Positions 6,529 through 28,872 of a stretch of 40,586 nt of DNA are shown here, piece by piece (the stretch's first letter is position 1; every line of letters starts with the position of its first letter). Where the stretch lies: NCBI GenBank assembly GCA_016866785.1, contig VGLH01000017.1, positions 1 to 40,586 of the forward strand. The letters run 5' to 3'. The notes beneath the pieces were generated by a model. The model was not told the DNA's origin. It worked only from the letters and a program-made list of their open reading frames with translations, and did not search any database. Origin of the DNA: Candidatus Poribacteria bacterium. GTDB taxonomy: Bacteria; Poribacteria; WGA-4E; GCA-2687025. Position numbers and translations under genes: made by a program.

Positions 6529-7113
6529 CTAGCGAGCGGTCTTCATCTGCGCCCAGGTGACCGCCGCCTTGCCGCGCGGTTCGACGGCGAGCCCGCCGAT
6601 GCCGAACGGCCGCGACTTGACGGTCTGCCCGATGAGGTCGAACTGCGCGATGTAGCGTCCCGCTCCGACCCAGGGTCCCACGCTGTTGACGGGTCCCGCC
6701 GGACGCGGCTCCGGCTTCTTGGCTTGGACGTCGCCGACGTCGATGCCGACAGGCTCGTCCGGGTCGTCGCCGGGACGGACGGGCGGGAGGTCGTCGACGC
6801 CCGGGATGTAGCGCTTCTGGTCCCAGCGCCAGAGGGCTTCGTCGCCAGGTCCGAGCAGTCCGAGGGCGTTGTCCATCGCCTGGGGCAGCATCAGCACGGG
6901 CTCCTCGCGCCCGTCTTGAGAGAGCCGCGCGATGGTCGGATAGCGCCCGATGGAACCCCACATGACCTCCGCCTGGGTCGCGTTCTTGAGCGTCAAGATG
7001 ACAGGCTGGCTGCGGTCGTAGGTGGCGCGGTCGGTTGTGAGCATGACGGCTGCGCGGGCGGTTCCCCCGATGGAGAGGGCAAGAAACAGGGAAAAGGCGG
7101 CGTAGCGTGTCAC
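6529..7113 (-). CDS. Secreted protein, Ig-like, with shared C-terminal tail
   Basis: A 194-residue protein. The GTG start at 7113 is chosen because GGAGG lies 8 bases upstream and translation gives a clean signal peptide (VTRYAAFSLFLALSIGGTARA, about 21 residues). The mature part begins with LTTDRATYDRSQPVILTLKN, a pattern seen in BsuPI-like or other small beta-sandwich domains, continues with LGPGDEALWRWDQK, and closes with VGAGRYIAQFDLIG. A proline-rich linker (about 120-145) interrupts it. The last 18 residues, VEPRGKAAVTWAQMKTAR, match the ends of the two LamG proteins next door. It is co-oriented with them, so the three probably form an export group. Function is unknown. Confidence 0.72.
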   Translation of the reverse strand: MTRYAAFSLFLALSIGGTARAAVMLTTDRATYDRSQPVILTLKNATQAEVMWGSIGRYPTIARLSQDGREEPVLMLPQAMDNALGLLGPGDEALWRWDQKRYIPGVDDLPPVRPGDDPDEPVGIDVGDVQAKKPEPRPAGPVNSVGPWVGAGRYIAQFDLIGQTVKSRPFGIGGLAVEPRGKAAVTWAQMKTAR

Positions 7114-7200
7114 GGCGTATGCCTCCGACAATGAAACGGGGCGAGGACGTTGGCACGATGCCACGGACCCCACCCCGTCATGTCAGTCGAACGATGGCAG

Positions 7201-8001
7201 TTAGCGCGCCGTTGACTTGATCTCAGCCCAAGCCGTCGCAGCCTTGCCGCTCGGCTCCACGGCGGTGGCGCTTCCGACCGCCTGGAAGACCTGCTTGACC
7301 TCGGCGGCGCTCAGGGCGCGGTTGTAGATGACGACTTCATCGATCTTGCCGATGAACCCGCCGTCGGCAGCCTTGCCGATCTCTGTCGCCGGTCCTTTGC
7401 TCTTGGGCGACCCACCCGGCGACTCTTGCTCCATGCCGACCGCGCCGTTCAGGTACACCGTCATGAGCTTCTCGCCGTACACTGCCGCGAGATGGTGCCA
7501 GGTGTTCGGGGCGAGCTTCTTGACGCCGAATCCGCCGTCGCCGACCCAACCCGCCGAGTTGACGATGAACTCCATCTCCTTGTCCGGGTTGCGCCCGTCA
7601 TAGCGGAGCGCCCAACCCTCGGCGCCGCGCTGAGCGACGATGCTTCCGCAGCACCCGGCGACGACGCCCTTGACGGGGTCCGCGCTGGCGGCGTTGACCC
7701 ACGCGGCGACCGAGAAGCCCTTCACGGCGGAGAAGTTGAGCGCGGCAGTTCCGGCGATCTCAATGCCCGCATCGCCGTCGAACTCGAGCGCCTGCTGGAC
7801 CTTGCCCGCGACGGACTTGACGGTTCCCACGACGACGCCGTTGTTGCCGCCGACGACGTCCTTGACGTCCTTGCCGCTCACCGTCGATGTGTCCAGCGGC
7901 CAATGACCGACGAGACCATCTTTGGGAAGCTGAGCGAGCGCGGAGCCCGCGAACGCCAAGGCGAGGATCGCTACATGCCAAGACCGAATCTTCGTTCGCA
8001 C
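7201..8001 (-). CDS. Secreted LamG-domain protein (copy 1)
   Basis: A 266-residue secreted protein with a concanavalin-like LamG (laminin G 3) domain. The GTG start at 8001 has AAGGAG about 9 bases upstream and gives a signal peptide ending GSALA before QLPKDG. LamG hallmarks follow: GLVGHWPLD, ALEFDGD, FSVAAWVNA, a cysteine pair in GVVAGCCGSIVAQ, NTWHHLAAVYG and IDEVVIYNRALSAAEV near the end. LamG domains usually bind glycans or matrix proteins and no enzyme site is seen. The C-terminus is VEPSGKAATAWAEIKSTAR. It is a close paralogue of the protein encoded just upstream (8139-8933), so a tandem duplication is clear. The target of binding is not known. Confidence 0.85.
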   Translation of the reverse strand: MRTKIRSWHVAILALAFAGSALAQLPKDGLVGHWPLDTSTVSGKDVKDVVGGNNGVVVGTVKSVAGKVQQALEFDGDAGIEIAGTAALNFSAVKGFSVAAWVNAASADPVKGVVAGCCGSIVAQRGAEGWALRYDGRNPDKEMEFIVNSAGWVGDGGFGVKKLAPNTWHHLAAVYGEKLMTVYLNGAVGMEQESPGGSPKSKGPATEIGKAADGGFIGKIDEVVIYNRALSAAEVKQVFQAVGSATAVEPSGKAATAWAEIKSTAR

Positions 8002-8029
8002 TCTGATTTTCTCCTTATTGGGTGACGGT

Positions 8030-8046
8030 TTCCCGAACGTCGGGAA
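8030..8046. repeat. Short hairpin between the two LamG genes
   Basis: TTCCCGA, loop ACG, TCGGGAA: a perfect 7-bp stem with a 3-base loop. In the transcript it lies after the upstream LamG gene and about 30 bases before the start of the downstream one. It lacks a U-run. It may be an RNA-processing or stability hairpin that tunes the two paralogues differently. Confidence 0.4.
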
Positions 8047-8138
8047 TGGTGCCGAGTCGGAGGGCGGGTTCCAGCCCCGACCTCCGACCCGCCCAGGTAG
8101 CCTTCGTGAACGTCGCGGAACGGAAGAAGCCGCAGCCC

Positions 8139-8933
8139 CTAGCGGGCCGACTTCATCTCGCCCCACTTCGTCGCGGCCTTGCCGCTGGGCTCGACGCCCA
8201 GGCCGCTCGCCGTGTAGATCTTCTTCACGTCGGCAGCAGTGATGGCGCGATTGTAGATGAGCACTTCGTCGATCTTGCCGACCCAGCCGCCGTCGGTCGA
8301 CTTGCCGATCTCCGTGTTGACGCCGGTGCTCACGGGAGATCCGCCGGGCGATGCTTGGGATACGCCGACCTCGCCGTTGAGGTAGATGATCATATCCTTC
8401 TCGCCGTAGACGCCGACGAGGTGGTGCCAGGTCTTCGGGGCGAGCTTCTTGACGCCGAATCCACCGTCGCCGACCCAGCCCGCCGAGTTGACGATGAACT
8501 CCATCTCCATGCCGGCGTTGCGTCCGTCATAGCGGAGCGCCCAGCCGGCGGCGTTGCGTTGCGCGACGATACTCCCACAGCAGCCGGCGACGACGCCGAC
8601 GACCGGATCGTCACTCGCGGCGTTCACCCATGCGGCAACCGAGAACGCCTTCATTTTCGCGAAGTTCAGCGACTCCGTTCCGGCGATCTCGATGGGGCTA
8701 GCTCCATCGAACTCCATCCCCTCACGGACCTTTCCGGCGGTGGAGCTGATCTTTCCATTGATGACGCCGGGGTTCTTGCCGATGACGTCCTTGACGTCCT
8801 TGCCGCTGACCGTCGAGGCATCCAGCGGGTAGTAGCTGATAATGCCGTCCTCAGGCAACTGCGCTATGGCGGACACCGAAACCACGGCGAACAGGGCAGC
8901 GACGAGCCAACCCCTATTCTCCTTCCGTCCCAT
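8139..8933 (-). CDS. Secreted LamG-domain protein (copy 2)
   Basis: A 265-residue secreted LamG protein. ATG at 8933 is preceded by AGGGAG, and the signal peptide ends VSAIA before QLPEDG. The domain order equals copy 1: GIISYYPLD, GMEFDGA, FSVAAWVNA, GVVAGCCGSIVAQ, a stretch identical over NSAGWVGDGGFGVKKLAP, KTWHHLVGVYG, and IDEVLIYNRAITAADV. It ends VEPSGKAATKWGEMKSAR. The conserved CC pair could form a disulfide or bind a metal. The genes are separated by 137 bases. Surface glycan binding or self-assembly is a plausible role; this is inference. Confidence 0.85.
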   Translation of the reverse strand: MGRKENRGWLVAALFAVVSVSAIAQLPEDGIISYYPLDASTVSGKDVKDVIGKNPGVINGKISSTAGKVREGMEFDGASPIEIAGTESLNFAKMKAFSVAAWVNAASDDPVVGVVAGCCGSIVAQRNAAGWALRYDGRNAGMEMEFIVNSAGWVGDGGFGVKKLAPKTWHHLVGVYGEKDMIIYLNGEVGVSQASPGGSPVSTGVNTEIGKSTDGGWVGKIDEVLIYNRAITAADVKKIYTASGLGVEPSGKAATKWGEMKSAR

Positions 8934-9060
8934 ATGCGTTCTCCCTACCAAAGCGGTATCGAGTGCGTGTGGCGACATGGCAACCGGAGGCAATCCACCC
9001 AGAGTGTAACCAATTTCGGGGCTGAGCGCACGTGGCGACGCAGACGCGAGCCACGGCGTA

Positions 9061-11760
9061 CTACCGTATAAGGACGTGGTAGATCGCGTCCGGGTTGAGC
9101 TCGGTCAGCACGGAACCGTCCGCGGCGTCCGGCGGAGCCGTCTTGCCGCGCGGACGAACGTACCCGTTCTCGTCCAGCGCGACAACCTGAATCGGCCGGC
9201 CATTCGCCCTCGGGAACTTCACAGTCGCCCTGATCTCGGCGACGCCGAACGGGCTCCCGCCCAGCGACGCGATCCGCTCGCCCTCTTGCCGGAACCCGTA
9301 AGGGCGATCCTCAGTCAGCGTCTGAACGAGAATGCGGCGCGACTCGGCGAGCGGGAGCCCGTCCAACGAAATGACGCTCACCGAGCCGAACTCGTTCCGA
9401 CATTCGATCGTCACGTCTCCGAGCGCGATGGGTCCCGCCTTCGCCAGGAACCCGACGGCTCCCTGGCTCCGAGGCGTGTCCACCGTGGCGATGCCCACGC
9501 CGTAGCGCCATTCGAGCTCGCCGGTGAGGCTCCTGACGACCTGAGCGGAGCGGTCGATGTAGTGGGACATCGCCGCCTGGGTCGAATCGGCGGGGTTCTC
9601 GCCGAAGACGCGGACGACGGGTCCGACGGCGAACGAGAGCGGGTCGAACGTCGAGACGGGACCCGACACGCGCGCATCTGCCGGGACATCGGCGGCGCGG
9701 AGGGCGTCGAGCGCTTCGGGCGTCGCCGCGCCGGAGCCCTGCATCGCGAACAGGTCGTCCAGCCGCAGCACCTGGCGGATCGCCGGCACTCCTGCCGCGA
9801 CATCGCCCCGGCGGTACTGGAGCGCGGCGGCGGGGAACGAACCCGCGACCACCGGCGAGCCGACCTGGAACTTCGCCATCGACGTGTCGCGCAGGAAGTT
9901 GCTCCCAACGGCGAAGAAGTAGAACCCGTCGATGTCCTGCAGCGAGCCGTAGGCGGACGCGAGAAACGTCATGTCGGCGCGAAAGCGGTTCGGCTGGGGC
10001 CAGCCGATCTCCGAGACGGTGTGCGGGTAATCGCCCGTCTGGAACACGTTGAAGGGCAGGTTCGTCGGATTCTGCACGGCGGCGGTGTTCTCGAACGTGT
10101 GCTCGACACGTACGGCGTAGCCGGAGCCTTCGCCGTCGTGCTTGCCGCCGAAGTATCCGTGCCGGTCGATGACCTCTCCTGCCCCGTAGGTGTAGCGTTC
10201 CAGCGCGTCGAGCGTGGGCCCGTCGGTCACGTGCCAGTTGCTCGGGGACACGAGGCTCTGGGAGCCCAGATCGTCGCGCAGATGGCGGATCGTCTGCTCG
10301 TAGAACTCGCGCTGCAGTTCGGTCAGGAATCGAACTTGATCGCCGATGCGGCGCGTCTTGTCGGGTCCGCCGGCGCGGGAGCCGTCGCGGGTCATGTGCC
10401 ACGCTTCGAAGATGCCCGCGCGTCCGCCGGCGGCGTCGTCGGGATGGGTCGCGGAGCCCCACGATTCGAGCGCATTCGCCAGGGAACCGTACCGCCCTTC
10501 GAGCCAATGGGCGAACCGACGCTCCAGCCGCTCCCAATGAACGGCAGGGACGTTCTTTTGCGTGAACGTCCAGAAGAAGAAGCTGTCCTCGTTCTGGAGC
10601 TCGACGACGGAGACGGCAGGCTCCTGGGACAGTGGAACGCCCGTATAGGGGTTGGGCGTGGAGAAGATGCCGTCGAGCCACGAGCGATAGATCGCCTGCA
10701 TCCGCTCGTCGAAGAAGAGCAAGGCGAAGGGCTTCTTGTTCTCGATGGTCTCGTAACCGTCGATGCCGTAGGACGGCCGGATGTCGAACCAGAGCGGGAA
10801 GTAAAAGCTGAGGAAGGTGTAGATGCCCTCGCTCTTCATCGCGGCGATGAGGTAGTGCAGGTCGTCGAGTTTCCGCGCGTCGATGATGGCGGGATCGCCG
10901 GAGGCATCGAATAGGGGCCCGTGGTAGCGCACGCAGTTGACACCGAGTTTGGCGAGCTTCCGCGCCAGATAGGCGACGGACTTCCGATCCTGTCCCGCGT
11001 TGTTGGCGCTCACGTTGACACCCCAGAAGCGGACGGGGGTTCCATCGCCGAGGACGAACCGGGCTCCGTCGCGCTGGACGAAGCCGTGTTCACCGGCTGC
11101 CGCTTCGTTCAGCGAGCGCAGGTCGAGCAGCGCGGAGTCGGAGAAGGGATCGAGCCCGGGCTCGAAGGGGAAGTAGCCCGGATCCGCTTTCGCGGAACGC
11201 TCGCCGGGCTTCAGCTTGCCGTTGGGCAGGAAGGCGTCTTGTGTCAGCAGGAACGCGTCGAACGCCGCCGTCAGGTTCTCGCCGGGACCCGCAAGCAGCC
11301 GGAGCTCGAAGCGGGCGTTCCCTTCGCGGAGATCGATGGTTCCCAGGTAGACCCAGTGGGCTCCCAGGTGCGTGCGCAGGTAGGTGTCGTCGGCGAGGGA
11401 AACATCGCGTCCGCAGATGCGCCATTCGTCGGTTCCGAAGCGCCATCGGAAGGGCCCGTGCTTCCAGAACTTGCGCGTCCAGAGGTCGTACTGCCCGTCG
11501 GCGGGTACGGCGACGTCGTAGATCGCGTAGGCTTCGTCGCCGGTGCGTTCGCCGGCGTTGGTGAGCCATTCGCCGCCGGAGAGGAGGTCGCGGGTCTCCG
11601 GGAAGGTGGACGAGGAGAACCAGGACGAGTCGGGGAAGTTCGTCTCGATCGGGTTCTCGCCCTCCCACCAGACCCATCGTTCGGCGCACTTCCCGGCGCG
11701 CGCAGGGAGCAGGGCGATGGCGATGCACGACAGCGCAAACGTCGCGATTCGGAACGTCAT
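9061..11760 (-). CDS. Large secreted glycoside hydrolase-like protein
   Basis: An 899-residue exported protein. ATG at 11760 has GGAG 5 bases upstream and a signal peptide (LSCIAIALLPARAGKC). Residues about 27-180 form a carbohydrate-binding-like beta domain (WVWWEGENP, then YDLWTRKFW). A TIM barrel follows from about 235: PVRFWGVNVSANN, LAKLGVNCVRYHGP, a candidate acid/base Glu391 in VVELQNEDSFFFW, and a candidate nucleophile Glu584 in VSEIGWPQPNRF. That arrangement is typical of clan GH-A (GH5-like) enzymes. The C-terminal 250 residues look like beta-sandwich domains. The exact GH family and substrate cannot be set from sequence alone. It is divergent from the TIM-barrel gene at 11904. Confidence 0.8.
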   Translation of the reverse strand: MTFRIATFALSCIAIALLPARAGKCAERWVWWEGENPIETNFPDSSWFSSSTFPETRDLLSGGEWLTNAGERTGDEAYAIYDVAVPADGQYDLWTRKFWKHGPFRWRFGTDEWRICGRDVSLADDTYLRTHLGAHWVYLGTIDLREGNARFELRLLAGPGENLTAAFDAFLLTQDAFLPNGKLKPGERSAKADPGYFPFEPGLDPFSDSALLDLRSLNEAAAGEHGFVQRDGARFVLGDGTPVRFWGVNVSANNAGQDRKSVAYLARKLAKLGVNCVRYHGPLFDASGDPAIIDARKLDDLHYLIAAMKSEGIYTFLSFYFPLWFDIRPSYGIDGYETIENKKPFALLFFDERMQAIYRSWLDGIFSTPNPYTGVPLSQEPAVSVVELQNEDSFFFWTFTQKNVPAVHWERLERRFAHWLEGRYGSLANALESWGSATHPDDAAGGRAGIFEAWHMTRDGSRAGGPDKTRRIGDQVRFLTELQREFYEQTIRHLRDDLGSQSLVSPSNWHVTDGPTLDALERYTYGAGEVIDRHGYFGGKHDGEGSGYAVRVEHTFENTAAVQNPTNLPFNVFQTGDYPHTVSEIGWPQPNRFRADMTFLASAYGSLQDIDGFYFFAVGSNFLRDTSMAKFQVGSPVVAGSFPAAALQYRRGDVAAGVPAIRQVLRLDDLFAMQGSGAATPEALDALRAADVPADARVSGPVSTFDPLSFAVGPVVRVFGENPADSTQAAMSHYIDRSAQVVRSLTGELEWRYGVGIATVDTPRSQGAVGFLAKAGPIALGDVTIECRNEFGSVSVISLDGLPLAESRRILVQTLTEDRPYGFRQEGERIASLGGSPFGVAEIRATVKFPRANGRPIQVVALDENGYVRPRGKTAPPDAADGSVLTELNPDAIYHVLIR

Positions 11761-11828
11761 GGCGGCTCCAAACGTGTACGATTCCTCGTTCTGAGCGTAG
11801 CCTTCAGCGTGCGCGCACGCCAGCGGGG

Positions 11829-11857
11829 TTGCCACCAGAACGACGGGCGTCTATCGT
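11829..11857 (+). promoter_or_regulatory. Possible sigma70-type promoter
   Basis: TTGCCA at 11829-11834 and TATCGT at 11852-11857, 17 bases apart, sit about 47 bases before the ATG at 11904. The match is 5/6 and 4/6 to the E. coli consensus. Chance matches are possible, but the position between divergent genes is right. Confidence 0.4.
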
Positions 11858-11903
11858 CGGCAGCGCAGGCTCGGCTGACGCACACTCGTTGGAGGCAGGA
11901 ACC

Positions 11904-13049
11904 ATGTCGATGCTCGCCGTTGCCGCGTGGGCGCTCATGGCAGCCGGAAAGACGACGACGGAATGGCGCTTCGGACCGCCAACCGACCCGGATCACTTCC
12001 CCATCGGCGTCTGGCTTCAGGCTCCCAAGAACGCCGTGCGATATCGTGAAGCCGGGATCAACTTCTATCTCGCCCTCTGGCGGGGTCCCACTCAGGAGCA
12101 GCTCGACGAACTGACCCGCGCCGGGATGCCTGTCATCTGCGGACAGAACGCCGTCGGGCTGGCGAACCGCGAGAACCCGATCATCATCGGCTGGATGCAT
12201 CAGGACGAACCCGACAACGCCCAATCGCTCGGAGAGGGCAAGGGATGGGGTCCGCCGGTACCGCCGTCGAAGGTTTGGGAGGACTACGCCAAGTGGCGAG
12301 CCGCCGATCCGACGCGCCCCGTGCTGCTGAACCTGGGGCAGGGCGTCGCCAACGACAACTGGCGCGGGCGCGGGTCGTGGGGCAAGAAGGAGGACTACCC
12401 GGAATACGTGAAGGGTTGCGACATCGTCTCGTACGACGTGTATCCCGTCGCGGATCGGGCGTTGACCGACGGCGACAATCTGTGGCTCGTCGCCGAAGGC
12501 GTCGACCGACTGCGGGCGTGGACGAACGACGAGCGGATCGTCTGGAACATCGTCGAGGCGTCACGGATCGGCAACGTCGAACGCAAGGTGTCGCCGGCGG
12601 AGCTCCGCGCCGAGGTGTGGATGTCGCTGATCCACGGCTCGCGCGGGATCGTCTACTTCGTCCATCAGTTCGAGCCGCACTTCGTCGAGGCGAGTTTGCT
12701 GGAGGACGCCAACCTGCTCGCCGCCGTGACGGCTCTCAACGCGGAAGTTCGCTCCCTGGCGCGCGTTCTAAACACAGGCGAGTCCGTGGGAACCGTGTCC
12801 GTGGCGTCGAGCGCGGCTGACGTGCCGATCGACGCGCTGGCGCTCCGTTCCGAGGGCGCGCTCTACGTTTTCGCCGTCGGGATGCGGCAGGGAGCGACGA
12901 CGTCGCGATTCTCGCTGCGCGGCATCGCCGACGGCACGACCGTCGAGGCGCTCAACGAGGGTCGGTCGCTGACGGTGGAGGGAGGCGGGTTCTCGGACGA
13001 CTTCGCGTCTTACGGCGTGCATCTCTACCGGATCGACGCGCGTCCGTAG
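11904..13049 (+). CDS. TIM-barrel glycoside hydrolase-like protein
   Basis: A 381-residue protein. ATG at 11904 follows GGAGG by 8 bases. The first 15 residues (MSMLAVAAWALMAAG) could be a short signal peptide. The body looks like a (beta/alpha)8 glycosidase-like domain: FPIGVWLQAPKN, YREAGINFYLALW, IIGWMHQDEPDN with Glu102 as candidate acid/base, CDIVSYDVYPV, and a late WMSLIHGSRGIVYFVHQFEP. Residues 290-381 form a small beta-sandwich tail, as in many barrels with a C-terminal beta domain. Similar proteins occur widely in Poribacteria-like and planctomycete genomes as uncharacterised hydrolases. It heads a + strand run with the dehydratase-like gene 76 bases downstream, suggesting sugar breakdown. 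Confidence 0.75.
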   Translation: MSMLAVAAWALMAAGKTTTEWRFGPPTDPDHFPIGVWLQAPKNAVRYREAGINFYLALWRGPTQEQLDELTRAGMPVICGQNAVGLANRENPIIIGWMHQDEPDNAQSLGEGKGWGPPVPPSKVWEDYAKWRAADPTRPVLLNLGQGVANDNWRGRGSWGKKEDYPEYVKGCDIVSYDVYPVADRALTDGDNLWLVAEGVDRLRAWTNDERIVWNIVEASRIGNVERKVSPAELRAEVWMSLIHGSRGIVYFVHQFEPHFVEASLLEDANLLAAVTALNAEVRSLARVLNTGESVGTVSVASSAADVPIDALALRSEGALYVFAVGMRQGATTSRFSLRGIADGTTVEALNEGRSLTVEGGGFSDDFASYGVHLYRIDARP

Positions 13050-13125
13050 CGCCGGCTCCGTTGCCGCCCCACGACCGCTGCGATATCGTGTCACCGCATC
13101 CGACCCCAACCAACAGGAGAGCGCC

Positions 13126-14292
13126 ATGAAGATCGCGTCGATCCAAGCGGTGCAGGCTCACATCCCGCCGCGCCCCGGACCTCGCACGGAGGCGCGCCGA
13201 CCGCCCTGGGCAGCGGATGACGAAGTCGCCAACCCCATGTCGAAGTTCCCGCGCTACAAGCGCTACCGTTCGAGCTGGCTGCCCAAGTGGCCCGGCGTCT
13301 GGGTGAAGGTCACCGCCGAGGACGGCACGTGGGGGCTCGGCATGACGAGCTACGGCAGGGCGACGGCGGCGGTCATCGACGACCACCTGGGGCCCCTGCT
13401 CGTCGGCGAGGAATGTCTCGCCATCGAGAAGTGCTGGGACATGATGTTCCGGGCGTCCAAGCCCTACGGAACCGCTGGGATCGCCTCCTGCGCCATCTCG
13501 GGGATCGACCTCGCGCTCTGGGACCTCGCCGGGAAGATCGTCGGGAAGCCTGTCTATGAGCTCCTCGGCGGACCTTTCCGCGACCAGCTCTTCGCCTACG
13601 CGACGGGCAACGACGTCGATTGGTATCTCGAATGCGGCTTCCGAGCCGTGAAGCTCGCCTGTCCCTACGGGCCCGCCGACGGGCTCGACGGGCTCCGCCG
13701 CAACGAAGACCTCGTCGCCCGAACACGTGAGCTCTGCGGCGACGAGGTCGAGATCATGCTCGACTGCTACATGGCGTTCGATGTCGAGTACACCGTGCGT
13801 CTCGCGGAACGCCTGAAGCCCTACCGGCTCAAGTGGATCGAAGAGTTCCTCCTGCCGGAAGACCTCGAAGGGCATATCCAAGTGCGGCAGCGAGTTCCGT
13901 GGCAAACGCTCGCCGGCGGCGAACACCTCTTCACGGCGTACCCGTTCCGCCAGCTCATCGAACATCGCGCGCTCGACATCCTGCAGCCGGACATCTTCTG
14001 GATCGGCGGCTTGACGCCCACGCGGGAGGTCTGCCATCTGGCGAACGCGGCGGGGATCAACGTCATCCTTCACGGCGGCGGGATGAACCAGTACGGACTC
14101 CACCTCTCCGCGGCAATGCCGAACACAGCTTGGTGCGAGTACTTCGTCGGAAGTCCTCCCGGCGTGCCGTTGGAAGAGGCGCGCGGCGTCAATGCAAGCG
14201 TTGTGCCGGTGAACAGCGCGATCTTCCCAGGCAACGGACCCGGGTTCGGCTTGGACATCCGAGAGGAGTGGCTGAGCCCCTTCTTCGCGTAA
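13126..14292 (+). CDS. Enolase-superfamily dehydratase, L-rhamnonate dehydratase-like
   Basis: A 388-residue member of the mandelate racemase/muconate lactonizing group. It likely removes water from a sugar acid to give a 2-keto-3-deoxy acid. The metal ligands fit Asp213 (IMLDCYM), Glu239 or Glu240 (KWIEEFLLPED) and Glu266 (LAGGEHLF). Asp289 (ILQPDIFW) and His316 (VILHGGG) fit the general-base pair, and Lys176 (AVKLACPYG) matches the lysine loop. The order of blocks, including NPMSKFPRYK near residue 40 and the end PGFGLDIREEW, resembles rhamnonate dehydratase more than mandelate racemase. The substrate is not proven. ATG has AGGAG upstream. The membrane protein gene begins 22 bases after its stop, so the two may be one operon. 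Confidence 0.85.
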   Translation: MKIASIQAVQAHIPPRPGPRTEARRPPWAADDEVANPMSKFPRYKRYRSSWLPKWPGVWVKVTAEDGTWGLGMTSYGRATAAVIDDHLGPLLVGEECLAIEKCWDMMFRASKPYGTAGIASCAISGIDLALWDLAGKIVGKPVYELLGGPFRDQLFAYATGNDVDWYLECGFRAVKLACPYGPADGLDGLRRNEDLVARTRELCGDEVEIMLDCYMAFDVEYTVRLAERLKPYRLKWIEEFLLPEDLEGHIQVRQRVPWQTLAGGEHLFTAYPFRQLIEHRALDILQPDIFWIGGLTPTREVCHLANAAGINVILHGGGMNQYGLHLSAAMPNTAWCEYFVGSPPGVPLEEARGVNASVVPVNSAIFPGNGPGFGLDIREEWLSPFFA

Positions 14293-14314
14293 CCCCGTTG
14301 GCAGGGACACTCGG

Positions 14315-16234
14315 ATGGCGAAGCAGGCAGTCCGACGAACGAGCGGCGTCACCGCCCGCTCGTTCGTCCTGGGGATCGTCTTGATCCCCGTCAACGTCTA
14401 CTGGATCATCTACGCCGAGATGGTTTGGTGGGGCTTGTTCCCTACGACGATGTCCCTATTCTTTAACGTCGTCTTCACCCTCTTCATCCTGACGCTCCTA
14501 AATCTCGCCGTCGGGCGCTTCCGTCCGAAATGGGCGCTGACCCCGGCGGAGCTCGCCGTCGTCTATGTGATGCTCTGCATGGCGAGCGCCGTCGCGTCCC
14601 ACGACCGGGCGCAGGTTCTCATCTCCAGCCTGGGACACGCCTTCTGGTTCGCCACGCCGGAGAACGACTGGTCGGGGCTCTTCGCGCGCTACCTGCCGTC
14701 GTGGCTTACCGTCCAGGACCGCTCCATCCTCCAGGGCTACTACGAGGGGGATTCGACCTTCTACCAGCGTCGGATCGTCCTCGCGTGGCTGGGGCCCGCC
14801 CTCTGGTGGACGCTCTTCATCGGCGTCCTCATGTTCGTCATGATTTGCCTGAACGTCCTGCTGCGGCGGCAGTGGACCGACCACGAGAAGCTCGCCTACC
14901 CGATCATCGAGCTTCCGACGGCGATGATCCAGGAGAGCGGCAAGTCGTTCTTCTCGAACCGCACGTTCTGGACCGCCTTCGTCCTCGTGACGCTGCTGGA
15001 CATCGTCAACGGGATGCGCGCCATCTACCCGACGATCCCCGTCATTGGCGTCCGGCTACGCGACATCAGTTACCTCTTCACGTCGAAGCCCTGGAATGGC
15101 GTCGGTTGGACACCCTTCTCGATCTACCCGTTCGTGGTCGGGTTGGGCTTCGTCATGCCGCTCGACCTCTCGTTTTCGAGCTGGTTCTTCTTCCTGTTTC
15201 GCAAGGCGCAGCACATCGTCGGCGCGGCGTTAGGCATCCGCGCGCTGCCGGGGTTCCCGTACGACCGGCAGCAGTCGCTGGGAGCCTATCTCGGGCTGTC
15301 GCTCTTCGCGGTCTGGGCGAGCCGGGGCTACTTCGCCGCCGTATTGCGCCACGTCTTCCGCTCGTCGTCACGGATGGACGATTCGAGGGAACCGATGCGC
15401 TACCGCGCGGCGGTCGTCGGCATCGCGGTGGGAAGCGTCTTCCTGCTGGCGTTCGTCCATCGGATTGGGATGAGCCTGTGGGTCGCGGTTCTCTTCTTCG
15501 GCGTGTTCTACGTGCTGTCGATGGGTATCACGCGGATGCGTGCGGAATCCGGCGCTCCGGCGCACGACCTCCACTTCATGGGACCCGACTACACGCTGAC
15601 GGCGCTCTTCGGCTCGCGGTTCTTGGGGAAGGACAACGTGACGGCGTTCTCGCTCTTCTTCTTCATGGGCAGGGCGCATCGGAGCCACGTCATGCCGCAC
15701 CAGTTGGAGGGATTCAAGCTCGCCGAGCGCGTGCAGATGCGATCCGCGCCGTTGGTCGTGGCGATGGTCGCCGCGATCCTCGTCGGCGGTCTGGCGTCCT
15801 TCTGGGCGTACCTTCACGACGTCTACATCTACGGCTCCGGCGGCGGGTTCGGTTGGGAACCCTTCAACCGTTTGCAGGAACGCCTTGTCACGCCGACGGG
15901 CCCCAACGTGCCCGAGATCTCGTTCACGCTGGCAGGGATGGGGTTCGCCTTCCTGCTGATGTATCTTCGGCGAGCGCTGGTGTGGTGGCCCTTCCATGCG
16001 GTCGGCTACGCCGTCTCCGGCGCGGACGACTGGTGCATGAACTTCATCTGGCCCTCGCTCATCATCAGCACGGTTCTGAAGTGGATCATCCTGAAATACA
16101 GCGGGTTCCGGCTTTATCGGAAGCTGATTCCGTTCTTCCTGGGGCTGGTGCTGGGCGAGTTCGTGACGGGCAGCCTGTGGAGCATCTACGGCATCTCACA
16201 GGGCGTGCGTATCTTCCCGTTCAAGGACTGGTAG
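14315..16234 (+). CDS. Polytopic membrane protein, DUF6785/DUF6784-type
   Basis: A 639-residue integral membrane protein with a dozen or more hydrophobic segments. The first is ARSFVLGIVLIPVNVYWIIY after a basic N-terminus. Conserved-looking cytoplasmic parts include DHEKLAYPIIELPTAMI at about 190-205, HLLHFMGPDYTL-like text (DLHFMGPDYTLTALFG) near 420, and SHVMPHQLEGFKLAE near 465. The overall plan resembles the DUF6785 plus DUF6784 family, common in Poribacteria, Armatimonadetes and Planctomycetes and vaguely like oligopeptide transporters. A transport role, perhaps for sugars or sugar acids handled by the dehydratase gene just upstream, is inference. AGGGA lies 7 bases before the ATG. Confidence 0.78.
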   Translation: MAKQAVRRTSGVTARSFVLGIVLIPVNVYWIIYAEMVWWGLFPTTMSLFFNVVFTLFILTLLNLAVGRFRPKWALTPAELAVVYVMLCMASAVASHDRAQVLISSLGHAFWFATPENDWSGLFARYLPSWLTVQDRSILQGYYEGDSTFYQRRIVLAWLGPALWWTLFIGVLMFVMICLNVLLRRQWTDHEKLAYPIIELPTAMIQESGKSFFSNRTFWTAFVLVTLLDIVNGMRAIYPTIPVIGVRLRDISYLFTSKPWNGVGWTPFSIYPFVVGLGFVMPLDLSFSSWFFFLFRKAQHIVGAALGIRALPGFPYDRQQSLGAYLGLSLFAVWASRGYFAAVLRHVFRSSSRMDDSREPMRYRAAVVGIAVGSVFLLAFVHRIGMSLWVAVLFFGVFYVLSMGITRMRAESGAPAHDLHFMGPDYTLTALFGSRFLGKDNVTAFSLFFFMGRAHRSHVMPHQLEGFKLAERVQMRSAPLVVAMVAAILVGGLASFWAYLHDVYIYGSGGGFGWEPFNRLQERLVTPTGPNVPEISFTLAGMGFAFLLMYLRRALVWWPFHAVGYAVSGADDWCMNFIWPSLIISTVLKWIILKYSGFRLYRKLIPFFLGLVLGEFVTGSLWSIYGISQGVRIFPFKDW

Positions 16235-16268
16235 ACGGAGTTCGCGCTCGAGGCGTGCGGCGTCTGGG

Positions 16269-17804
16269 CTAGAACGACGTTCCCAGACGGATGTGAACCT
16301 TGCCTTCGAGCGGCGAGACCCCCGGAGCGAGCCCGTAGTCCAGCCGGACGATCCCGCCGCGCGACTCCAGGTTCGCCCCGATCCCGTAGCCGTACTTCAC
16401 TGAAGTGGCGGGCGATGCCCCGGCGATCTTCCCGACATCGAGGAAGGCGAACACGTGCGAGTCGGGACCCGTCAGGATGCGGTACTCCACGCCCGCGAGA
16501 ACGCGGCGCGTGCCTCGGTACTCCCGTTCTCGGTAGCCTCGCAGCGTCGACGCGCCGCCCATGAAGTACCACTCCGTCACGGGCAGGTCGTCCCCCCGAA
16601 CGTAACCGGCGCGGACGCTGGGAGCAAGCACGTGCCGCGACCACAGCCGCCGATGCGCCGTCGCCGCTACGTCGATGCGCGTCAGCGGGACATCGCCCGC
16701 CATCTGGTCGACGCGCACTCGAGCGTAGCTGCCTTGCGTCGGATTGGGTTGGTAGTCGCGCCGGTCGTAGGTCGATTCGGCGAGGACGCCCCATGCCGAG
16801 GAACCGTCCGCACGCGTCGCCTGAACGCCCGCGCCGACGCGCAGGTAGGGGCTCAACCGCCAATCGGCGCGGGCAAGACCGTTCCGACGACTCGAACCCT
16901 CATACGTCTCGGCGTTCCATTCGACCGAGAGCCCCAACGGCGCGCCGAACAACGCCGGTTCCCGATACAACGCATGGGTCGCCCGGTTTTCGCCGGACTC
17001 CCAGCGGAACCCGACCTGCCGACCGGTTCCCAGCAGGTTCGTCTCCGCCACCTCGATGATGCCGGTGAGCTGCGGCGTGTCCTCGTCGTCTCGGGGCGGC
17101 GCGTAGCCGAGAACGCCAGCGGCTCTGCCTGTGCGCGCCTCTTCGACGCGGGCGCGGAAGACGACCCGATCCGGGGCCGATCCGCGCTGCACCATCGACG
17201 GGTGGACGCTGTCGAAGTACCCGCTGTTGACCAGCAGGTGTCGCGAACCGTCAATCGCGCGCTGATCGTAGCGGTCGCCAGCGCGGATGGAGACCATGCG
17301 CTCGACCGTCGTACGGCGGGTCTTCCTCAAGCCCTCGAACTCGATCCGCTCCACCGTGACGACGGGTCCTGCCCGAACATGGACGAGGAGCCCGACGTCT
17401 CCCGTATTGCTGTCGAGCGAGACGACCTCGGGAACGATCTCCGCGAGCGGGTGTCCCGCTTCGGAGAAGCGCATCAGCAACCGCTCGACACCCCGGTTCC
17501 ACCGGTCGCTGGAGAACGGCGCGCCGACTCGGACTCCCAGCGTACGGCGCAACGTTGCGTCCGAAAAGCCCTCGATTCCGTCGATACGGAGCGATGCGAT
17601 CCGGGCTCGCGGTCCCTCGCGGATCGCGAACGTGACGCTGACCGTGTCCTGATCGACCAGCAGGCTCGGAGTGATCTCGGCGAACAAGCGTCCTGCGCGG
17701 CGGTAGGCATCGAGGAGCCTGGCGGCGCCTTCTGGGAGCGAGGCAGGATCGAACGCGGTACCCGGTTCCCATCCCAGGGCGGCTTGGAGGGCGGGTCGTG
17801 ACAA
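16269..17804 (-). CDS. Omp85/BamA-like outer membrane protein (start unresolved)
   Basis: An Omp85-superfamily protein with N-terminal POTRA domains (ARIASLRIDGIEGFSDATL and VTVERIEFEGLRKTRRTTVE, about 60-220) and a C-terminal 16-strand-type surface antigen barrel. The barrel carries the GGASTLRGYRERE motif and FAFLDVGKI. It would insert or secrete outer-membrane proteins or lipids. At about 511 residues it is shorter than BamA (about 800), so it is closer to TamA-like or other accessory members. The only usable start is a TTG at 17804, but the same frame continues upstream to 17916 and encodes a good signal peptide (WIAIALTLAVSASAQ, then HVELVLS). There is no ATG, GTG or TTG in that stretch, only an upstream TGA near 17991. 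The true start may be non-standard, or a base is missing. The GcvH-like gene ends at 17917. Confidence 0.82.
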   Translation of the reverse strand: MSRPALQAALGWEPGTAFDPASLPEGAARLLDAYRRAGRLFAEITPSLLVDQDTVSVTFAIREGPRARIASLRIDGIEGFSDATLRRTLGVRVGAPFSSDRWNRGVERLLMRFSEAGHPLAEIVPEVVSLDSNTGDVGLLVHVRAGPVVTVERIEFEGLRKTRRTTVERMVSIRAGDRYDQRAIDGSRHLLVNSGYFDSVHPSMVQRGSAPDRVVFRARVEEARTGRAAGVLGYAPPRDDEDTPQLTGIIEVAETNLLGTGRQVGFRWESGENRATHALYREPALFGAPLGLSVEWNAETYEGSSRRNGLARADWRLSPYLRVGAGVQATRADGSSAWGVLAESTYDRRDYQPNPTQGSYARVRVDQMAGDVPLTRIDVAATAHRRLWSRHVLAPSVRAGYVRGDDLPVTEWYFMGGASTLRGYREREYRGTRRVLAGVEYRILTGPDSHVFAFLDVGKIAGASPATSVKYGYGIGANLESRGGIVRLDYGLAPGVSPLEGKVHIRLGTSF

Positions 17805-17916
17805 GGCGCTGGAACCTATGAACCGGGTGTCCGACAGGACCAGCTCGACGTGCTGGGCTGACGCCGAGACAGCGAGTGTCAGCGCGATGGCGATCCAGGC
17901 GTAGTTTGGCGTGCGG

Positions 17917-18336
17917 CTAGAACTCGTCCTCGCCGAAGTCGTCCCCTTCGTCGTCGTCCTCGTCCTCGTAGAACTCGTACTCTTCCGGTGTCATCAGGGC
18001 GTCCAGCTCGTCGACGAACTCCATGCGGATGCGGATCAGCCAACCGTCGCCCTCCGGCGAGTTGTTGAGCAGGCTGACGTCGCCGTCCAGGTCCTCATTG
18101 ATCTCGACGACCTCACCGGTCACCGGCGCGTGGTAGGTGACGGTCACGCCCTCGCGCGTTTCGATCACGCCAATCGGCTCGTCCTGCTCGTACTCGGCTC
18201 CGACTTCGGGAAGCTCCACAAAGACTACGCGCCCATTCTCCAGTACCAGGCGCTCCGAGACACCGACGGTCGCCAACTCCTCGTCGTCCGTCTCGACCAG
18301 GATCCACTCGTGAGTCTTCGTGTACCGAGTTTCCAA
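17917..18336 (-). CDS. GcvH-like protein without the lipoyl lysine
   Basis: A 139-residue glycine-cleavage H-protein homologue. The TTG start at 18336 is chosen for AGGAG 7 bases upstream; the usual YTKTHEW begins at residue 5. Fold landmarks are present: ATVGVSE, VVFVELPEVGAEYE, then APVTGEVVEINEDL and GDGWLIRIRM. The lipoylation loop normally reads ESVKA, but here residues 59-63 are ETREG with no lysine at or near the site. The only lysine in the protein is in YTKTHEW. It therefore cannot carry lipoate in the normal way. The tail (about 120-139) is almost all Asp and Glu. No gcvT or gcvP lies nearby. A structural, regulatory or moonlighting role is possible. The fold assignment is firm; the function is open. 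Confidence 0.85.
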   Translation of the reverse strand: METRYTKTHEWILVETDDEELATVGVSERLVLENGRVVFVELPEVGAEYEQDEPIGVIETREGVTVTYHAPVTGEVVEINEDLDGDVSLLNNSPEGDGWLIRIRMEFVDELDALMTPEEYEFYEDEDDDEGDDFGEDEF

Positions 18337-18484
18337 ACTGAGTCTCCTGACGGTCACGTTTCCGTATGGCGCCAGCAACGATGGATGCCGGCGGCATGGG
18401 CTGTTCCGGCGAAGCCCGCTAGTTCTAATAGCACAGGGTCAGACGCTTTTCTATGCGATTTGCGGGATTTCTCTGGTACCCGCC

Positions 18485-19543
18485 TCACTGGGCGCGGCGT
18501 ATCCCGAACGACCAGGTCCATCGCGACGACTCGCGCTCGACCAGGTAGCCGTCCGAGGCGATTGGCAGGAATCCCGGCGAAGCTCCGAGCGACAGCGACC
18601 ATTCACCGAGTAGAATCGAGCCTCCGAACGTCGGGCCCTGCGCGACCCACAGGTGTTCATGCGGCGTCGTCGTTCCAGTCGTCAGGTCCGTCCGGGTCGT
18701 GATCCGGGGCTCGACGCGGCGTTCGTATCCGGCGTTGAGCCGAACTCGATCGCCGATGCCGACCGACCCACCGCCGCTCACCTGCGCCCCGTCCTTCGAT
18801 GGAAAGCGCGCGTCTCCGACCAGATCGACGGAGACTCGATCCGTCAACTGCCGCGTGTGACCGAGCCCAACGGCTACCTGCCGCCAGAGCCGCGTCGGTG
18901 ATGCGGCCTCCAGAGCGCCCACGCCATTGCTCAGATTGCGCGCAAGCAGCCCAACGCGCCAGCCTGTAGCGATAGACCATGCGCCGCCCGCGTCGAATGC
19001 CCAACCATGGACATAGGCGGGATCGCCGCCTGCGCCCGTCTGCTTCGAGCGGAGCCATTTCGCCGTGCCGCCAACCGACACCGAGTCGCTCAGACGGCGT
19101 CCCAGGCTGCCGGCGACCAGCCAGTCCGCCCGTGGGAAGGCATGGATCGACGTTCCGTCGTGATCGACGCGCGTGAAATCGCCTTCTTGCCGCATGCCGA
19201 CGCTCAACGCGAAGGGAGTCTGGTCGCCCAGGCTCCCGATGTGATCGATCTGCTGATAGGTGTAGCCGGGCTGGTAGAGCTCGCCGCTCGTCGTTTGCCC
19301 GCCTTCGGGTGTTCCCGCGAGGAGCAACACGCGAGTGTCCGGTACTCGGAGCGCGTTGATCTGGGTTCCATGCACCGTCATAGGAAACGCCGGATTCAGC
19401 GCAAGGGCGATCGTGTTCCCTGAAGCCCGCGCGTCCGCCTTTGGGCTGTCGGACAAGTACGGCAGCGCGGGCGCGCCATGCGCCGCCAGAACGCCGGCAA
19501 GGGTCCAAACCAAAGCAAAGGCAACCGAACGATGGTTACGCAA
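18485..19543 (-). CDS. Predicted outer-membrane beta-barrel protein
   Basis: About 352 residues. The start is taken as the TTG at 19543, which overlaps the 3' end of acpS; other TTG codons nearby are possible. The N-terminus has a hydrophobic export signal (VAFALVWTLAGVLAAHGAPA). The rest is rich in alternating beta-strand patterns with Gly/Arg turns, such as VSVGGTAKWLRSKQTG, WRVGLLARNLSNGVG and DRVRLNAGYERRVEPR, and ends with WSFGIRRAQ. NPAFPMTVHGTQ near the start recalls the PorV/UPF0164-type barrels. It follows acpS in one transcription unit. Substrate or pore role is unknown. Confidence 0.65.
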   Translation of the reverse strand: MRNHRSVAFALVWTLAGVLAAHGAPALPYLSDSPKADARASGNTIALALNPAFPMTVHGTQINALRVPDTRVLLLAGTPEGGQTTSGELYQPGYTYQQIDHIGSLGDQTPFALSVGMRQEGDFTRVDHDGTSIHAFPRADWLVAGSLGRRLSDSVSVGGTAKWLRSKQTGAGGDPAYVHGWAFDAGGAWSIATGWRVGLLARNLSNGVGALEAASPTRLWRQVAVGLGHTRQLTDRVSVDLVGDARFPSKDGAQVSGGGSVGIGDRVRLNAGYERRVEPRITTRTDLTTGTTTPHEHLWVAQGPTFGGSILLGEWSLSLGASPGFLPIASDGYLVERESSRWTWSFGIRRAQ

Positions 19544-19922
19544 GGAGGAGGAGTACTTCGGCAATGGCGTGGTGCTCCGTGTGCGAAAGGCTGACGCGGA
19601 CATCGACGCCGCCCATTTCCTGGAAACGCGCCAACGCTCTGCCCCAGAACCGGATGGTCGGCTTGCCGCTTTTTCCTCGAACGACCTCGATCTCTTTCCA
19701 GTCGACGCCGCGCCAGCCGGTTCCCAACGCCTTCATCGCGGCTTCCTTGGCGGCGAACCGGGCGGCGAAGCTCTGATAGGGTCGGCTCCGAGAGCGGCAG
19801 TAAGCCTGCTCGTCGGGGGTGTAGACGCGCCGCTCGAACCGACCGCCCCAGCGTTCGACCGCCTCGCGGATGCGATGGACTTCGACGATGTCGACGCCGA
19901 CTTCGATGTCGCCGATGGTCAC
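19536..19922 (-). CDS. acpS: Holo-[acyl-carrier-protein] synthase
   Basis: A 128-residue AcpS-type phosphopantetheinyl transferase. It moves 4'-phosphopantetheine from CoA to the serine of acyl carrier protein, priming fatty acid synthesis in the cytosol. The Mg2+/CoA motifs are GVDIVEV with Asp11 and FAAKEAAMKALG with Glu60. The usual HTEHHAIAEVLL end is seen. Length is normal for the family (about 120-130). GTG at 19922 begins 4 bases after the folP stop, so translation is coupled. Its last codons overlap the start of the barrel gene. Confidence 0.95.
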   Translation of the reverse strand: MTIGDIEVGVDIVEVHRIREAVERWGGRFERRVYTPDEQAYCRSRSRPYQSFAARFAAKEAAMKALGTGWRGVDWKEIEVVRGKSGKPTIRFWGRALARFQEMGGVDVRVSLSHTEHHAIAEVLLLLA

Positions 19923-27375: not shown

Positions 27376-27632
27376 ACACGCTCAAGACGGTCGTCCACGC
27401 GACCATCCGCCGAGACGCGGACGGCAACTACGTTGGCACGTGCGACGAGATCGCCGTTGACGCGCGAGGGGCGCGCCTAGAAGACGTCGTCGCTCAGTTG
27501 CGCGACGAGGTCGTCGGACACCTACGGGATGAGCGCGTCGCCGAGTTCACCCTCTCCGCCAAGCCCAAGCTCCAGGTCACCATCGACCTGGACGTCGACC
27601 CAGCCTCTCAGTCGCGCTCCAAGGCGAGATAG
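27372..27632 (+). CDS. HicB-like small protein
   Basis: An 86-residue protein. Its N-terminal 50 residues, with the pattern [20 protein letters not shown] followed by [16 protein letters not shown], fit the partial RNase H-like fold of the HicB/UPF0150 family. HicB normally neutralises the HicA mRNA interferase, but no HicA is nearby and there is no C-terminal DNA-binding domain. It starts by ATGA overlap with the TIM-barrel gene and runs 25 bases into the converging deoxyhypusine-synthase-like gene. It is likely a solitary HicB-fold protein rather than an antitoxin. Confidence 0.6.
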
Positions 27633-28711
27633 TCCGCCGCGAGAGCTTCCAGACGCTCGTCCAACACGTCGTAGAGCCGTTTCAGCGCGCGTGGCTGCCG
27701 CCGTGTCAGCGCATACGCCGTCAGAATGGGCAGCGCGACGGTCGCATCGCTGTAGCAGACGACTGTCGACGGAAGCTGATCCGGGTTGATCTTGCCCCAA
27801 CTGACCGCCTCTGACGGCGTCGCGCCGGAGAGTCCGCCCGTGTCGGGTCTGGCGTCGGTGAGCTGGATGAAGTAGTCGTGTCCCTCCTCCTCCAGCCCGA
27901 GGACTTCCTGAATCTGTGGCTCCGTCTGCAGGACGAAGTTTTTGGGGGAACCCCCGCCGACGATGAGGACGGCGCTCTTGCCGCCGGAGCGCTTGGCTCC
28001 GTAGACGATCGCCGCCGTTTCGTTGACATCACGCGTGGGATCGAACCGGAGCTGGTTCCCCGTGAGCGCGAGCGCGGCGACGTTCATCCCGATGCTGCTG
28101 TCGCCCGGACTCGACGTGTACACGGGAACCCCTGCGCGGTAAGCCGCCGCCAGGAAGCTTTGCCGCGAGATGCCCAGCGCCTGCTCCCGTTCGTCGACAT
28201 ACTTGCCGAACTGGTAGTGGAACTCCGCCGTGCCCATCGTCCGCTGGAACTCGGGGCCCGCGATCACTTGGCGGCAGAAGGCGTCCGTCGAGAGGAGCAC
28301 GTCATAGTCGAACACGACATCATAGATGCGCACGATGCCCTCGCGGCGGAGCTCGCGATCGTCGACGAACGGCGTCGCGCGGTGCATCGTCTTGCCGATG
28401 CCGAAGTGCAGGTCGTGGTAAAGGTTCGCGCCGGTCGAGACGACCCAATCGACGAATCCCGCTTCGACGAGCGGGATGAGGGCGCTCATGCCGAGCCCAG
28501 CGGGCGTGAGGGCTCCGGTCAGGCTCAGGCCCACGGTGACATCGTCGGCGAGAACGCGTTCGGAGAACAGGGCGCACGCTTCGCGGAGCCGGGCGCCGTT
28601 GTAGGCGAGGAATGCGCTGTCCACCAGGTCGGCGACCGATATGCCGGGCTGGATGGCCGGCGGGGCGATGCGCCGCGAGTCCGCGAGCAGACCGTTACGG
28701 ATGTCGTCCAC
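27608..28711 (-). CDS. Deoxyhypusine synthase family protein
   Basis: A 367-residue homologue of deoxyhypusine synthase, an NAD-dependent enzyme that moves the aminobutyl group of spermidine. GTG at 28711 is chosen for AGGAAGG just upstream. Landmarks: [56 protein letters not shown], and [12 protein letters not shown] with Lys307 matching the catalytic lysine of the human enzyme. Bacteria have no eIF5A; bacterial relatives are thought to act on polyamines (homospermidine-type or related reactions). The substrate here is undetermined. Confidence 0.88.
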
Positions 28712-28872
28712 GTCCTTCCTCTCCGCCGTCGTAGCACAACCGTCGGGACTATGTCCGACGACCGGCTCCCAAGTCAACGCCATCGGAGCGATGTCATCCT
28801 GAGCCGCAGGCGAAGGCGCTGCGCGCCAGTCTCTACGGAAGCGACGGAGAAGCGCCAGGCGCGGACATAGAG

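Follow-up and report, generated by a model that had tools for sequence, protein, structure and literature searches.

A short C-terminal tail on secreted proteins of Candidatus Poribacteria and its possible role in protein sorting

Secreted proteins of Candidatus Poribacteria share a C-terminal tail of about 18 residues, which is probably a sorting or retention peptide and would be recognized in trans by a receptor common to the phylum, presumably located at the outer membrane. The almost exclusively C-terminal position of the tail, its link to Sec signal peptides, its indifference to the fold of the passenger, its restriction to one phylum and its sequence constraint are properties that a tag for sorting or retention, recognized in trans, would be expected to have. 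Sorting signals at the C-terminus are well known as such; one of about 18 residues that lacks both an anchor and a domain, occurs on about 85 proteins of one genome and is confined to one phylum was not found in the databases and papers searched. If this reading is true, sorting would be accomplished by a short peptide that has neither an anchor nor a domain. Sponges harbour Poribacteria as abundant symbionts that have not been cultured, and contact with the host is believed to be mediated by proteins of the bacterial surface. With the tail as a simple criterion, about 85 candidates for sorted proteins can be picked out in the genome studied here, and the criterion applies throughout the phylum.

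Tailed proteins in the window and in the genome

The window, i.e., the whole analysed stretch of 40,586 nucleotides, corresponds to contig C17 in an assembly of 291 contigs and 4.35 Mb. Three ORFs on its minus strand (6529-7173, 7201-8166, and 8139-8993) have the common C-terminus VEPxGKAAxxWxxxKxxAR, and their ends read exactly as quoted in the sequence-only reading. All three start with Sec-like signal peptides; here and throughout, a hydropathy rule was used instead of SignalP to predict signal peptides. The features are as follows:

6529-7113, minus strand: protein 1, secreted and tailed, about 194 amino acids from a GTG at 7113 (the frame is open to 7173)
6532-6585, minus strand: tail of protein 1, VEPRGKAAVTWAQMKTAR
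7051-7113, minus strand: predicted signal peptide of protein 1, MTRYAAFSLFLALSIGGTARA (hydropathy rule)
7201-8001, minus strand: protein 2, secreted LamG protein, tailed, 266 amino acids from 8001
7204-7260, minus strand: tail of protein 2, VEPSGKAATAWAEIKSTAR
7933-8001, minus strand: predicted signal peptide of protein 2, MRTKIRSWHVAILALAFAGSALA (hydropathy rule)
8139-8933, minus strand: protein 3, secreted LamG protein, tailed, 264 amino acids from 8933
8142-8195, minus strand: tail of protein 3, VEPSGKAATKWGEMKSAR (AlphaFold pLDDT about 50-60, unpacked against the LamG domain)
8862-8933, minus strand: predicted signal peptide of protein 3, MGRKENRGWLVAALFAVVSVSAIA (hydropathy rule)

The Pfam domain Laminin_G_3 was detected in the second (E-value 5e-23) and the third ORF (2.5e-21). 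Protein 1 matched neither Pfam nor NCBIfam models, in agreement with the earlier claim that it is not a LamG protein. Orthologues of protein 1 are present in relatives of the same family. Among its diverged orthologues, four close ones retain the tail, also in cases in which their central part has diverged; three of these four are 40-48% identical to protein 1 over nearly the whole length. Folding of protein 1 from its single sequence yielded a pLDDT of 31. The AlphaFold model of protein 3, calculated with 48 sequences, comprised a confident LamG core with blocks above 90, followed by residues 247-255 with values below 50 and the remaining tail with values of about 50-63, for which a low-confidence helix was drawn.

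The ending was searched for in the whole genome, as the sequence-only reading had proposed, using the strict DNA pattern CCNNNNGGNAARNNNRCNNNNNNNTGG, which encodes P-x-G-K-x-[AT]-x-x-W. The pattern matched 45 times, compared to three matches for a reversed-pattern control, which rules out chance or low complexity as the origin of the motif. In 41 of the 45 matches, the motif was located 14-21 residues before the stop codon of an ORF with a signal peptide-like N-terminus (hydrophobic and preceded by basic residues). A profile built from 40 tails found 91 places in the genome at E-values up to 10. Of the 44 additional places examined, 43 were C-termini, nearly all of which belonged to ORFs with signal-like starts, the single exception being an internal chance match on contig C59. 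A further few degenerate tails were recovered by a search for LamG domains. Taken together, strict pattern, profile, and LamG search resulted in about 85 tailed proteins, where the same tailed gene may be represented on both C126 and C227; the tail is thus not limited to the window. A total of 42 LamG loci exceeded the Pfam cut-off, 41 of which were tailed, some of them with degenerate tails (strongly so on contig C76). The sole untailed LamG locus encodes a protein of 818 residues on contig C2.

The tailed proteins are small, mostly 190-290 amino acids (41 from this genome and 117 from other genomes). LamG domains were assigned by Pfam to 19 of the 41 and to 60 of the 117 proteins, and the other passengers included GH43_C2, 3keto-disac_hyd, CBM_4_9, CBM9_1, NPCBM, DUF4960, DUF1349, and more. 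In most cases, the assigned passengers have carbohydrate-binding or ConA-like folds. The tail is therefore independent of the domain, as had been claimed, since it is found on LamG, on several other folds and on protein 1, for which no Pfam domain was found. A role of the tail as part of the LamG fold was ruled out by the non-LamG passengers and the low model confidence in the tail. The suspected link to secretion was borne out by a crude rule, according to which signal peptides precede 128 of 137 tailed ORFs versus 146 of 424 other ORFs. One long protein was observed as well (locus L070, a frame of 874 amino acids), which contains an LPVELSTF...ESELDNAGFNILRS module and carries the tail at its end. 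Modules of the LPVELSTF type often precede the C-terminal domain (CTD) in substrates of the type IX secretion system (T9SS) of Bacteroidota.

Consensus, constraint, and distribution of the tail

The phylum consensus was determined as V-x-P-x-G-K-[LA]-[AT]-T-T-W-[GA]-x-[LIV]-[KR]-x(0-8). It is based on counts from 173 tails, in which P, G, K, and W were fixed by the search pattern and the other positions were free. Of the latter, V at position -2 was found in 169 of the 173 tails, G, A, or S after W in 173, L, I, V, or M at +11 in 168 and K or R at +12 in 173. The ending VEPxGKAAxxWxxxKxxAR, as originally quoted, describes the local tails correctly, except that its terminal AR is a local property and absent from the phylum consensus. 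LamG proteins next to tailed ones in other genomes that seemed to be untailed mostly carry degenerate tails, e.g., VEPEDKLTTTWGSIKSR and VSARGKLATTWANLKR; from such versions, V, K, W, and the final K can be regarded as the core of the tail. The same codon was used at shared residues with frequencies of 0.53 and 0.36, compared to 0.50 and 0.355 expected from codon usage, respectively. This match is barely above expectation, indicating that the tail is conserved as a protein sequence and was not spread by recent DNA copying.

Matches to the strict pattern were present in all 85 Poribacteria genomes examined, covering 22 genera, and nearly all of these genomes were far above their own reversed controls. 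A scan of the named GTDB r220 genomes was conducted with a stricter pattern, and its figures cover the matches listed. Among the about 80 rows listed, about 75 belong to Candidatus Poribacteria and about five to others, which assigns the window to a Poribacteria genome. The rows of Yoonia, Anoxybacillus, and Enterovibrio among these matches represent short frames or internal matches. The pattern counts were at background level in five non-Poribacteria genomes (1-5), compared to 37 in one Poribacteria genome. A genuine-looking poribacterial tail, VHPRGKLATTWGEIKGSR, was observed on a 3.8 kb contig of a Deltaproteobacteria MAG (L076). Because this MAG has only two pattern matches in all, contamination by a misbinned contig or a single transfer is likely. 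Among the matches listed, the tail is essentially confined to the phylum Poribacteria, and rare occurrences elsewhere are possible. The restriction to one phylum, which the sequence-only reading had put forward for checking, is thus in accordance with the data.

Comparison with known tails and T9SS-like proteins

The 40 tails had no match in NCBIfam and no credible match in Pfam, which places the tail outside the domains described there, and a search of the tail profile against PDB sequences resulted in chance-level matches only. In the literature searched, which left out subscription journals and preprints, neither the motif nor a description of it was found. No transmembrane segment was detected in the last 35 residues of 161 proteins; the highest mean over 19 residues was 1.52 on the KD scale, so that no window reached 1.6, and the absence of a hydrophobic anchor noted earlier was confirmed. 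None of the tails contains a cysteine. The last 12 residues have a mean net charge of +2.1. A known sorting signal was rejected because no curated model matched and no transmembrane segment was present. The comparison with PEP-CTERM, T9SS, and other tails, which had been suggested, had the same outcome. The helical hydrophobic moment over the tail equals that of shuffled sequences (p 0.44-0.66), and an amphipathic-helix peptide was therefore rejected. The strand-like moment at 160 degrees was higher and slightly in favour of an extended strand, a weak statistic with p about 0.01-0.07.

Several known systems resemble the tail in part. Like PEP-CTERM, LPXTG, GlyGly-CTERM, MYXO-CTERM, and PGF-CTERM, it is short, recurs on many secreted proteins per genome and has basic last residues; in these systems, however, the motif is followed by a transmembrane helix. 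Dockerins follow the logic proposed here, in that one common module displays varied carbohydrate-active proteins, but a dockerin is a folded calcium-binding domain and the poribacterial tail a short unpacked peptide. No candidate for a cohesin-like partner was found among the neighbours of the tail genes. The encapsulation peptides of BMCs are also short terminal targeting peptides of similar length; they form amphipathic helices on cytosolic cargo, whereas the tailed proteins are equipped with Sec signals and their helical moment does not exceed that of shuffles. Signals of the KDEL type resemble the function proposed here, being C-terminal peptides read in trans after translocation, but they comprise four residues, function in the eukaryotic ER and use a machinery unrelated to the poribacterial tail.

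The T9SS type A CTD (TIGR04183) is similar to the tail in being C-terminal on Sec-exported proteins with many unrelated passengers, and the tailed proteins have the Sec signals of T9SS CTD substrates according to the hydropathy rule. The CTD is abundant in the same genomes and sometimes located directly after the tail motif. It differs from the tail in its length of about 70-90 residues (profile of about 72 positions) and in its start with NYPNPFNPETWIPY; the tail has about 18 residues, lacks the NYPNPFNPETWIPY sequence and occurs mainly on small proteins. No CTD match (TIGR04183/Por_Secre_tail, NCBIfam) was obtained for the tailed proteins of the window or the 40 tails. Programmed readthrough into a Por domain was rejected, since in none of 161 cases was PNPF encoded in the 400 nt downstream.

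An earlier study detected TIGR04183 domains in Poribacteria without finding genes for structural components of the Por system (Kamke et al., 2014; PMC3909097). The T9SS components looked for here were Por C-terminal domains, SprA, PorV, and PorU/C25. Each of the 25 relatives tested encodes between 9 and 78 Por_Secre_tail domains, the majority of them in long reading frames. The tail motif was located upstream of the Por domain in none of 26 Por-domain proteins examined. The sequence W-[GA]-x-[hydrophobic]-K followed, after a short gap, by N[YF]PNPFN was detected in 56 of the 85 genomes, which represent 9 of the 22 genera; the control yielded no match. The spacing between motif and Por domain is tight in these proteins. 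The examples include full tails, e.g., VEPTGKQATTWGKVKDAEVFQNYPNPFNPETW, and several in which the P-x-G-K part is degraded. In the loci L080, L114, L129, and L224-L243, the tail motif stands immediately before the Por/T9SS domain, and the passenger of L080 contains FG-GAP-like repeats. All that can be concluded from proteins with both tail and CTD is that the tail tolerates a Por domain following it.

SprA-like matches were obtained in 25 of 25 genomes, one of which exceeded the NCBIfam cut-off. The SprA-like fragment of the genome studied here (contig C144:2-5278, locus L208; 1758 amino acids, cut by the contig end) passed the Pfam cut-off of SprA_N, and similar SprA-like proteins of about 2,160 residues are present in most relatives. 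About 1.4 kb away from this fragment, there is a LamG gene with a tail. In one genome examined, no obvious T9SS gene cluster surrounded SprA. PorV-family proteins above the cut-off were found in 13 of 13 genomes, often with 10 or more matches each. C25/PorU-like peptidases also matched in 13 of 13 genomes (several each), and none of the 13 exceeded the cut-off for full-length PorU. On contig C27, a frame of 2011 residues (11691-18790; L365:3692-10790) encodes a Peptidase_C25 domain together with a propeptide and a C-terminal Ig-like domain according to Pfam. It is directly followed by a PorV-family gene, resulting in a PorU-PorV-like pair. The SprA-like, PorV-family, and C25/PorU-like matches and the pair on C27 make a divergent T9SS in Poribacteria likely, as judged from sequence, and revise the conclusion of Kamke et al. 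(2014; PMC3909097) on missing Por structural genes. In the window, an ORF on the minus strand (18485-19603), about 10 kb from the tail genes, showed a weak PorV-family match (18806-19237, E-value 6e-9) and no Pfam match.

Possible function of the tail

An undescribed tag for export, docking, or retention, as suggested by the sequence-only reading, is the best reading of the tail, because it occurs on about 85 proteins of the genome, belongs to no known domain, is linked to signal peptides, is independent of the fold, is restricted to one phylum and has no anchor. The evidence supports the three functions jointly and makes no choice among them. In the proposed mechanism, a small and usually carbohydrate-binding jelly-roll protein would be exported by Sec via its N-terminal signal peptide and then fold, while the flexible tail of about 18 residues would remain exposed at the C-terminus. 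The tail would then be bound in trans by a receptor present throughout the phylum, most probably at the outer membrane, and this receptor would either move the protein to the cell surface or hold it there. We infer the existence of this receptor, its outer-membrane site, and the display at the surface. An all-against-all comparison of 771 ORFs around the tails revealed no constant neighbour gene, which would fit a reader that acts in trans; a dedicated neighbouring partner gene was accordingly rejected. The SprA-like, PorV-family, and C25 proteins are the leading, but unproven, candidates for the reader machinery. Against this reading stands the length of the peptide, which is much shorter than any T9SS domain.

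More specific and rival readings differ in probability. Possible, but somewhat less likely than not, is an undescribed Poribacteria-specific sorting system, in which the anchorless tail on scores of lectin-like secreted proteins would be recognized by a dedicated outer-membrane receptor beside or branching from a divergent T9SS, so that small substrates (tail) would be separated from large ones (Por domain). A post-export docking tag is possible but rather unlikely; here, the proteins would use another export route and the tail would bind a surface scaffold, comparable to dockerin and cohesin, by which many lectins would be displayed together. The overwhelmingly carbohydrate-binding passengers and the unpacked tail with its strand-like rather than helix-like hydrophobic periodicity would suit this function, but the statistic for the periodicity is weak (p about 0.01-0.07) and no scaffold candidate is present among the neighbours of the tail genes. 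The proteins with tail and CTD also bear on docking, since the removal of the CTD known from T9SS would place the motif close to the C-terminus of the mature protein, a situation compatible with both docking and export; the cleavage position, however, is presumed from T9SS knowledge. Doubtful, in our view, is a minimal T9SS-type signal, for which one of the several PorV-family proteins would read the tail in place of a CTD of about 90 residues and deliver the small protein to the channel formed by the SprA-like protein; large passengers would use the classical Por domain. Such a signal would be in line with the Por_Secre_tail proteins and SprA-like matches in all 25 genomes, the PorV-family and C25/PorU-like proteins in all 13, the adjoining PorU-like and PorV-like genes on C27, the SprA_N match of the genome's own fragment, the small size of the tailed passengers and the position of the motif directly before the CTD in some proteins. 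On the other hand, the tail has neither the sequence nor the size of a type A CTD, a cryptic CTD was found downstream in none of 161 tail-only proteins, and the NCBIfam cut-off was passed by SprA in one of 25 genomes and by PorU in none of 13.

Two further explanations carry less weight. The tail could be a processing signal analogous to short sortase or PorU signals, with a C25-type Lys/Arg peptidase cutting at GK or LK and linking the C-terminus to a surface lipid or sugar. This is improbable because the residues after GK are conserved as strongly as those before it and a hydrophobic stop-transfer segment is absent, even though the conserved K and K/R positions, the basic end (+2.1 on average over the last 12 residues) and the several C25 matches per genome, one of them Pfam-confirmed with a propeptide, would be compatible with it. 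Least probable by far is a relic, i.e., a junction left behind by the loss of a Por domain and kept by descent without function. The same motif does precede the Por domain in some proteins; however, it was absent from all 26 Por-domain proteins examined, the tail is under strong constraint on unrelated passengers while the passengers diverge, and its conservation across 22 genera largely refutes such an origin.

Apart from the tailed proteins, the window encodes a deoxyhypusine synthase (27608-28783, minus strand; PF01916, E-value 2e-72), although this enzyme is mainly known from eukaryotes and archaea.
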